DNA of 64,000 nucleotides. Source: an uncultured Flammeovirgaceae bacterium (GTDB lineage Bacteria; Bacteroidota; Bacteroidia; Cytophagales; MED-G16). Of the stretch, positions 805 through 5,303 are shown piece after piece. The translations under genes and the position numbers were made by a program. The number at the start of each line of letters is the position of its first letter. Positions within the stretch are counted from its first letter, which is position 1. The DNA lies in contig CAJXDN010000002.1 of assembly GCA_913052485.1 (NCBI GenBank), positions 1 through 64,000 of the forward strand, given 5' to 3'. The notes below the pieces were generated by a model. The model worked only from the letters and a program-made list of their open reading frames with translations, was not told where the DNA came from and searched no databases.

Positions 805-2451
805 TTAATCAGGATTACAATTTGTGAAAATTGGTATAAGAACTTCACTGAGAGAAGAGCCTGACCAAAAAGTACCACATACATATACATTAGCAACGTC
901 CCAGTTACTCAAATCTTGATTAAAGGATGTAGCACCAGAAAACATAAATTGCATAATTGTTACATTACTAACATCCCACATCCTAATATCTCCATCAAAG
1001 GATAAGGCATCAGAAAACATAAGCCTCATGTCAATAACATTTCCAACATTCCAATTTTTTAGATCTTGATTAAATAAGATAGCGCTAGCAAACATCCCAG
1101 ACATATCTGTCACACTACTAACATCCCACTTATCGATATCTTGATTAAATGATGAGGCTTCAGCAAACATAACTTTCATATCTGTTACTTTACTTACATC
1201 CCAACTCCCAATATCTTGGTTAAATGATGTAGCACCATTAAACATTTCACTCATGTCTGTTACACTCAAAGTTTCCCAAGTCCCGATATCTTGATTAAAA
1301 CTTGATGCACCCACAAACATGTAACTAGTTGAGGTAACTTTATTTGTATTAGAACCCCAATCATAGAGCGATTGATTAAATTCTTCGTTATATCCAAACA
1401 TATAACCCATGTCAGTGACATTATTTATATCCCAATCACTTATATCCTGATTAAAAGCCGAACCAAAAAACATTCCACTCATATCTGTTACGTTACTAAC
1501 ATTCCAACTACTTATATCCTGGTTAAAATTTGTCGCTCCCCAAAACATACCACCCATGTCAGTAACATTACTCACATCCCACGAGGATATATCAATATTA
1601 AAGTTACTAGCATCATCAAACATATCTTCCATATCTAAGACATTACTTACGTCCCACGAGGATATATCGCTGTTAAAATTACTAGCATCCTCAAATATAT
1701 CTTTCATATTTATCACATTACTCACATCCCAGTTTGAGATATCACCATTAAAGCCTGTTTTTCTAAACAGTCTATTCATGTCGGTGACAAGTGAAACAAC
1801 ATATTGTGAGAGCTTATCTGGATCCTCAGTCCAAGGGGCTTCAGAAATCAAACTCCTCAAAAGTTCTTCGGATACTATTCTATATTCTTTACCATCAATT
1901 ACACCCCTATCACCAGAAATTCCCCAGTCCTGAGCCTTTATTGTAACACCATTATCATCTAGGTATACAGGATTCAACATAACTCCAAATTCATCTATTG
2001 GAACTCCCTTCCTAGTGGTATTATCCTTATCAATATCGTCGGTGACCCCGTCACCATCTGAGTCAAGTTGAGATGCTGCACATCCATCAGAATTTACTGT
2101 AGTACCTGAGGGCGTGTCAGGACATTTATCGTCGGCATCTGTCACGCCATCATTATCTGCATCTATGTATTCAAACTCAGCAGTTATACTAGTATTAGAC
2201 GTTATCTCAAATGTAAGTGGATTGTTGTTACCACTTTCTCCACCACTCCATTGCTTGAAGCTATAACTAGGTGATGGCACTGCTGTTATTGATACCGTTT
2301 CTCCTTCGTTAAAAGTTCCACCGCTAGGACTTACCGATCCTGTTCCAGGAGGAGTTACTTGTGTCGTGAGAGTGTAAGTCACAGGTGGTACTTCTTCCTC
2401 ACAAGAAATTAATAAAAAAGATATTATAAATAGGTAGTATAGATTTTTCAT
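805..2451 (-). CDS. Surface lipoprotein: divergent InlB B-repeat-like domain + thrombospondin type-3-like Ca repeats + BspA/DUF285 repeats
   Basis: Lipobox FLLISCEEE; TPPGTGSVSPSGGTFNEGETVSITAVPSPSYSFKQWSGG; DADNDGVTDADDKCPDTPSG; about twelve FNQDISSWDVSNVTDMSGMF-type units. Confidence 0.88.
   Translation of the reverse strand: MKNLYYLFIISFLLISCEEEVPPVTYTLTTQVTPPGTGSVSPSGGTFNEGETVSITAVPSPSYSFKQWSGGESGNNNPLTFEITSNTSITAEFEYIDADNDGVTDADDKCPDTPSGTTVNSDGCAASQLDSDGDGVTDDIDKDNTTRKGVPIDEFGVMLNPVYLDDNGVTIKAQDWGISGDRGVIDGKEYRIVSEELLRSLISEAPWTEDPDKLSQYVVSLVTDMNRLFRKTGFNGDISNWDVSNVINMKDIFEDASNFNSDISSWDVSNVLDMEDMFDDASNFNIDISSWDVSNVTDMGGMFWGATNFNQDISSWNVSNVTDMSGMFFGSAFNQDISDWDINNVTDMGYMFGYNEEFNQSLYDWGSNTNKVTSTSYMFVGASSFNQDIGTWETLSVTDMSEMFNGATSFNQDIGSWDVSKVTDMKVMFAEASSFNQDIDKWDVSSVTDMSGMFASAILFNQDLKNWNVGNVIDMRLMFSDALSFDGDIRMWDVSNVTIMQFMFSGATSFNQDLSNWDVANVYVCGTFWSGSSLSEVLIPIFTNCNPD
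890..1790 (-). repeat. Intragenic ~75-bp (25-aa) tandem DUF285 repeats, about 12 degenerate copies
   Basis: Repeated FN(Q/S/I)DIS(S/N)WDVSNVTDM..MF..A(T/S) units in the 805-2451 protein. Confidence 0.85.
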
Positions 2452-3171: not shown

Positions 3172-3510
3172 TCAGTGAGACAATGAATTATAAAATATCA
3201 TTATATTTAAAAATAAATATGTTATTGCCGGTAAGACATCTACAATATTGTCTTTGATTTTTATCCGAATTAAAATTGCCGCTGTCATCATCATAATAAA
3301 ACAGAACGATGTCAGTATTAATAAAATATCTATTTTAAGTCCTATCAATAGTCCTACTCCACCTAGTAATTGTAGGAAACCTACCAATTTTCTTTGATTA
3401 TTATATCCCCAACGATCATACTCTGATTTCATTCTTCTTGATATAAATGAGCTGTATCCGTAGACAATAAATGATATAGCAGTAAATACGGTAACTAAAG
3501 TTAAATTCAT
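3172..3510 (-). CDS. DoxX-like small membrane protein
   Basis: 112 aa, four hydrophobic segments, GYNNQRKLVGFLQLLGGVGLLIGL pattern typical of DoxX-like family. Confidence 0.55.
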   Translation of the reverse strand: MNLTLVTVFTAISFIVYGYSSFISRRMKSEYDRWGYNNQRKLVGFLQLLGGVGLLIGLKIDILLILTSFCFIMMMTAAILIRIKIKDNIVDVLPAITYLFLNIMIFYNSLSH

Positions 3511-3513
3511 TAA

Positions 3514-3858
3514 TTAAATCAAACCACTATTGAAAGCAGATATATATAATGACATCAATAAAAAAATTAATGATGGTAGTAACTTAGAGATGGGATTTTT
3601 AATTTTAAGATGAGACAACTGAGCACAAAACATAAAAAAAGCCATAGATACAGAACCAAACAGGATTAAATCATTATACCAGATACCTGCTAATAGTAAA
3701 ACAGATGATGAAATCTTAAAGGCACCAACAAAATTTCTAAGGAGATCTGAATACCCAAATTCATTAAACTCTTTCACTACATTATCATACCTCAAAGTCC
3801 AAACAAAAAATACTGATACTGCTACAATTAATTGAAAAGCTGCTGAAAGTTCTAACAT
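3514..3858 (-). CDS. DoxX-like small membrane protein (paralogue of neighbour)
   Basis: 114 aa, same topology; GYSDLLRNFVGAFKISSSVLLLAGIW aligns to the 3172-3510 product. Confidence 0.55.
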   Translation of the reverse strand: MLELSAAFQLIVAVSVFFVWTLRYDNVVKEFNEFGYSDLLRNFVGAFKISSSVLLLAGIWYNDLILFGSVSMAFFMFCAQLSHLKIKNPISKLLPSLIFLLMSLYISAFNSGLI

Positions 3859-5164: not shown

Positions 5165-5233
5165 TTAACAGTCGCAGCAAGTACAGTCATTGCAGCTACT
5201 GACACATTCGCAATTTTTACATTCACAATTCAT
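5165..5233 (-). CDS. 22-aa Cys-rich metallothionein-like peptide (putative)
   Basis: My translation ATG(5233)...TAA(5165-5167): MNCECKNCECVSSCNDCTCCDC, 9 Cys of 22 residues in CxC/CxxC/CC spacing; below ORF-track cutoff. Confidence 0.5.
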   Translation of the reverse strand: MNCECKNCECVSSCNDCTCCDC

Positions 5234-5303
5234 AAATTAAATATACCGAAAAACAATTATTAGCACAAATCGTCAATTAAATATAAGAAAATAAGATATT
5301 TAA

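Follow-up and report, generated by a model that had tools for sequence, protein, structure and literature searches.

A selected 22-residue cysteine-rich peptide, putatively a minimal metallothionein, encoded by a probably leaderless microgene in uncultured Cytophagales

The bacterial SmtA/BmtA metallothioneins (PF02069) are thought to buffer Zn. To our knowledge, few metallothioneins have been recognised among Bacteroidota or among streamlined bacteria of the ocean. The copper metallothioneins of fungi such as Neurospora crassa and Agaricus bisporus (Binz-Kagi family 8) are 26 amino acids long, once the shortest known, and carry seven cysteines arranged as X2-CXC-X5-CXC-X3-CXC-X2-C-X3 (PMC4755600). 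The beta-domain of mammalian metallothionein has nine cysteines that form a Zn3Cys9 cluster (PMC10243857). Short cysteine-rich ORFs also occur as regulators, and PMC9031893, citing Canestrari et al. (2020), describes mycobacterial polycysteine attenuators that combine a leaderless layout with cysteine codons.

The window analyzed here, a 64,000-nucleotide stretch of DNA from an uncultured Flammeovirgaceae bacterium (genome G000), contains a 22-codon ORF with the cysteine scaffold CxCxxCxCxxxCxxCxCCxC (Table 1), whose position, strand and translation in the initial annotation all matched our re-translation. Among the 353 ATG ORFs of 15–59 aa in the window, the next highest cysteine count was four. 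In 40 simulated windows (first-order Markov), no 22-residue stretch in any frame held more than six cysteines and no ATG ORF of up to 30 aa more than five, so that the earlier opinion that nine were unlikely to arise by chance was upheld. The gene is unannotated, and peptides of 22 residues fall under the usual gene-calling limits.

Table 1. Positions and properties of the peptide ORF, its predicted promoter elements, its variants, neighboring genes and sequences discussed with them.
Feature	Genome or contig	Position	Strand	Sequence or remark
22-codon ORF + TAA	G000 (window)	5165..5233	minus	MNCECKNCECVSSCNDCTCCDC; ATG at 5233, TAA ending at 5165; 22 aa, 9 Cys (41%)
Predicted -7 promoter box	G000 (window)	5238..5245	minus	TATATTTA; ends 4 bases before the ATG
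Candidate -33 element	G000 (window)	5266..5269	minus	TTTG; 20 bases upstream of the -7 box
Divergent form	G012			MNCDCKVCDCKESCSCSCCDY; 8 Cys, terminal Tyr
Divergent form	G004			MNPCNCTNCDCETTCSCDCCNC
Divergent form	G003 (another genus)			MCECDKCECTESCDCKCCDC
Shortened copy	G005	L006:1501-1554		MNCECKDCECTSTCDDC; 17 aa, 6 Cys
73-aa membrane protein	G000 (window)	downstream of peptide		
DUF285 protein	G010, G014 (L002/L005)	directly downstream of peptide		BspA-like repeat
DUF285 protein	G000 (window)	805-2451		BspA-like repeat
Apparent tRNA gene	G006	downstream of peptide		read from sequence
48-aa protein	G013	downstream of peptide		
SnoaL_2 protein	G011	downstream of peptide		
MerC-family gene	G012 (L202 / L216)	28 bases past peptide stop	same as peptide	Pfam PF03203, E 1.3e-14
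GNAT protein	G004	downstream of peptide		
438-aa protein	G003	downstream of peptide		
GH10 match	G011 (L101)	G011:C3:114382-115584		one in-frame TAA
Viral Cys-rich peptide	L053 (viral contig)	3498-3645	minus	METCKNCEHGCHCSDGSSCTSCECKNCDC...; in structural gene cluster near portal and capsid genes

Besides the window's own genome, the peptide was present in nine other genomes of the same family, the carriers being nine of the 12 genomes of the genus (the window's own counted) and one genome of another genus. The family search gave six further genus genomes, with five complete 22-residue copies and the shortened copy of G005, while the forms of G012, G004 and G003 were recovered by a looser cysteine-spacing pattern. 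The full-length set therefore denotes six 22-residue orthologues, the window copy included, and the variants are those of G003, G004, G005 and G012. Distant relatives retained the cysteine scaffold with one residue fewer between Cys14 and Cys17, which gives the general form CxCxxCxCxxxCx(x)CxCCxC. In the G005 copy, a 15-base in-frame deletion had removed sequence around Cys17–Cys20; the G005 genome has the highest contamination estimate within the genus (7%). Because the G012 form has eight cysteines and that of G005 six, nine are not strictly required.

A profile built from the ten sequences recovered all ten members (E 6.7e-8 to 4.4e-4), and searches of 391 genomes of the order, 396 of the phylum and 395 of the class returned no convincing score outside the family. 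The weak matches there (13–17 bits, E 0.08–1) were rejected as true relatives, those inspected looking like chance. The peptide was not found in the genomes G001, G002, G007, G008 and G009, all of them incomplete, and with seven of the 12 genus genomes less than 80% complete these five absences within the family are uncertain; on this footing the peptide may be dispensable. The relatives had been expected among marine Flavobacteriales, which did not hold, the public names being ‘uncultured Marinoscillum sp.’ and ‘Flammeovirgaceae bacterium’, that is, marine Cytophagales, the order to which Marinoscillum belongs. The genomes with such names derive from single cells or metagenomes, and a binning artefact is unlikely because several of them were assembled separately and bear isolate names of the kind given to single-cell genomes.

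Across the six full-length orthologues all nine cysteines were invariant, although TGT and TGC were exchanged at eight of the nine cysteine codons, and the pooled pN/pS was 0.17. When these orthologues were compared in pairs, the differences between their cysteine codons, up to seven per pair, were confined to third positions, and neutral simulation gave a probability of 3.5e-5 to 6e-3 that all nine cysteines survive in a single pair that includes G000. Frameshifts and loss of cysteine codons had been named at the outset as evidence to look for against the peptide; no frameshift was seen in the relatives, and every cysteine codon was kept, with synonymous changes only, in the six full-length copies. 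Nucleotide identity was 0.6–0.97 within the ORF against about 0.3–0.4 outside, the exception being the 24 bases 5′ of the ATG (0.57–0.67), and conservation stopped at the peptide's stop codon. The other positions were hydrophilic with conservative exchanges, E/D at 9 and 16 and N/D at 2 and 7. The ORF is a real gene under purifying selection that acts at the protein level.

The conserved 24 upstream bases include a promoter-like box at a fixed spacing. The motif TAnnTT(T/A)(G/A) occupied positions -12 to -5 at eight of the ten peptide loci, against a background of nine among the 2181 ATGs of the window with the same box at the same spacing. The -7 element of Flavobacterium johnsoniae, TAnnTTTG, spans -12 to -5, and the Bacteroidota promoter consensus at -33/-7 is TTTG/TANNTTTG (PMC6847099). 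The box being placed as in F. johnsoniae, the A of the ATG is the predicted +1 and the microgene mRNA is predicted to be leaderless, a layout that is in the minority in this phylum, at 5.5% of mRNAs in F. psychrophilum (PMC9723704). A TTTG 18–20 bases 5′ of the box was present at the loci of G000, G013 and G011 only. No metal-regulator box was recognised by eye upstream of the peptide.

The flanks and downstream genes varied between species (Table 1); the peptide itself is therefore the probable product, of a gene independent of its neighbors, and a conserved operon was rejected. Across the loci no conserved terminator was seen 3′ of the stop codon. The sole metal link in the genomic context was the MerC-family heavy-metal transport protein of G012, which adjoined the peptide at one of the ten loci; the MerC genes of eight other family genomes did not, and a MerC partnership was rejected since it was confined to one locus and MerC was also present with no peptide nearby. 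Synteny with a GH10 gene was likewise set aside, as the gene was found in only four genomes and adjoined the peptide in some of them, which is not diagnostic; the GH10 matches of G000, G012 and G013 were intact. The occurrence of DUF285 proteins both elsewhere in the window and next to the peptide in two relatives suggests a local rearrangement of one ancestral region.

The initial annotation had recognised no named family, and this was borne out by Pfam, NCBIfam, PHROG and PDB sequences, in which the peptide had no family match; three orthologues queried against Pfam gave none even at E 10. The PF02069 profile found nothing in the 12 genus genomes, while the control, Synechococcus elongatus, was positive. 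CxC, CxxC and CC motifs at 36–45% cysteine are a metallothionein signature. The 20–22-aa forms were 36–45% cysteine with all three motifs, and the peptide agrees with the broad sequence criteria for metallothioneins (small size, more than 20% cysteine, CxC/CC/CxxC motifs and few aromatic residues). A Tyr at the end of the G012 form was the only aromatic residue, with no Trp or Phe, and no His occurred in any of the ten sequences (17–22 aa). Judged by its sequence, the peptide should be described as metallothionein-like rather than assigned to a named family. It may already be listed, with no function, in public small-protein catalogues.

The peptide is probably a minimal metallothionein-like metal-thiolate peptide encoded by a stand-alone leaderless microgene. 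Cysteine density, motif spacing, the scarcity of aromatic residues, the lack of His and the acidic spacers all point to this reading, and the minimal metallothionein-like character first proposed for the peptide gains support from the cysteine scaffold, the motifs and the selection on the peptide, whereas metal binding is what we infer from them. A sigma-A type promoter of its own would give a leaderless mRNA, from which a cysteine-rich peptide of 20–22 residues would be translated; up to nine thiolates in the CxCxxCxCxxxCx(x)CxCCxC arrangement would enclose a few soft metal ions as a cluster, and the conserved acidic residues would keep the peptide soluble. The load might be about three divalent ions of the Zn/Cd type, the number in the Zn3Cys9 beta-domain, or several Cu(I), and the peptide would buffer or detoxify metal in the cytoplasm.

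The same sequence features would suit a redox or thiol buffer, or a small chaperone that hands metal to a partner protein, instead of storage or detoxification, and size and cysteine density alone do not discriminate between these roles. We consider them unlikely, as no partner gene was consistently adjacent and the peptide has the dense CxC/CC pattern of cluster-forming peptides, not the single CxxC of a redox motif. The main rival, also rather improbable, is that the ORF encodes a cysteine-sensing leader peptide, on whose Cys codons ribosomes would stall when cysteine is scarce and thereby regulate a downstream gene. The predicted leaderless layout and the cysteine codons do resemble the mycobacterial attenuators as presented in PMC9031893, and a same-strand gene lay downstream of the peptide at most loci. 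However, these genes were unrelated, none was recognisable as a cysteine or sulfur gene and one was a tRNA gene; the sequence past the stop codon was not conserved, and its minimum free energy folds had no common hairpin. Moreover, the cysteine codons were interspersed, with a single CC pair, and the non-cysteine residues were also constrained, for which an attenuator has no need.

It is very unlikely that the peptide is a host counterpart of the marine viral cysteine-rich peptides, acquired from or shared with phages. Its eight-residue motif (CECK followed by N/D, C, an acidic residue and C) occurred in 61 viral contigs, mostly in tiny cysteine-rich ORFs; but a control motif in which K and E change places occurred in at least 80, with 50 similar tiny ORFs among the matches listed. 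Since the control motif is also common, the presence of the motif in both is not a reliable sign of descent, and homology with the viral peptides is not claimed. Beyond the eight residues the cysteine spacings differed, and tblastn against annotated phages and plasmids gave no match, a result made weak by the low-complexity filter. Finally, that the ORF arose by chance or incidentally within a conserved non-coding RNA, as its short length might suggest, has a negligible probability and is refuted for practical purposes by the third-position pattern, given codon-level selection, a cysteine count far outside the simulations, conservation that follows codons and is bounded by the start and stop codons, and no Rfam match at this place in the window.

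Tiny cysteine-rich ORFs were numerous in the IMG/VR marine viral contigs (L038-L098, L122-L201), e.g., MENCKKCEHGCHCSDGGSCTSCECKDCDCKKE, MLNACKNPDCKCENCNCKNCDC and MSCGECKCENCKCDPCECPKKDN. In one family of viral peptides, represented by 17 distinct DNA rows, all cysteines were kept and TGT/TGC varied at all cysteine codons but one. The viral cysteine-rich peptides tried had no match in PHROG. The contig L053, which encodes one of them (Table 1), aligned over 69% of its length, at 73.6% identity, with Pelagibacter phage HTVC115P, in the matching stretch of which no CxCxxCxC peptide was read.

A selected, genus-wide and probably leaderless cysteine peptide of 22 residues suggests that annotation misses part of the metal buffering in plankton. 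It is possible, if somewhat less likely than not, that metallothioneins of 15–40 residues form an overlooked class, present in streamlined marine bacteria and, separately, in many marine phages, and are common in ocean metal buffering. If so, this class would have been too short for gene callers, its bacterial members would be translated from leaderless mRNAs, and the 20–22-residue peptide would rank with the smallest metallothioneins in nature. The peptide also offers a small synthetic target for finding the minimum number of residues for a natural metal-thiolate cluster.

Among known systems, the tiny ORFs of marine viral contigs are like the peptide in size (15–50 aa), in their CxCxxCxC cores, in their K/E/N/D spacers and in that no family name was found for them, but they have other cysteine scaffolds and lengths. 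The mycobacterial polycysteine ORFs are also tiny, cysteine-rich and leaderless (as predicted here); their cysteine codons are contiguous and they act on a downstream operon, whereas here the cysteines are interspersed, the genes that follow have no relation to one another and the peptide sequence is conserved. SmtA/BmtA proteins share a bacterial host, richness in cysteine and CxC/CxxC motifs; the SmtA type, however, is about 50–60 aa long with His ligands and a zinc-finger fold, against 22 aa, no His and no PF02069 match for the peptide. The mammalian beta-domain has the same number of cysteines and similarly hydrophilic spacer residues, an analogy only, as it comprises about 30 residues with another cysteine spacing and is part of a two-domain protein. 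Fungal family 8 metallothioneins are alike in being very short and cysteine-rich, with CxC repeats and a single cluster-forming unit. They come from an unrelated host, and the peptide differs from them in its nine cysteines within 22 aa, its CC pair and its acidic residues; the cysteine pattern observed, CxCxxCxCxxxCxxCxCCxC, is not that of family 8. At 20–22 residues, the peptide is smaller than these fungal forms of 26 residues, which were for a long time quoted as the shortest.
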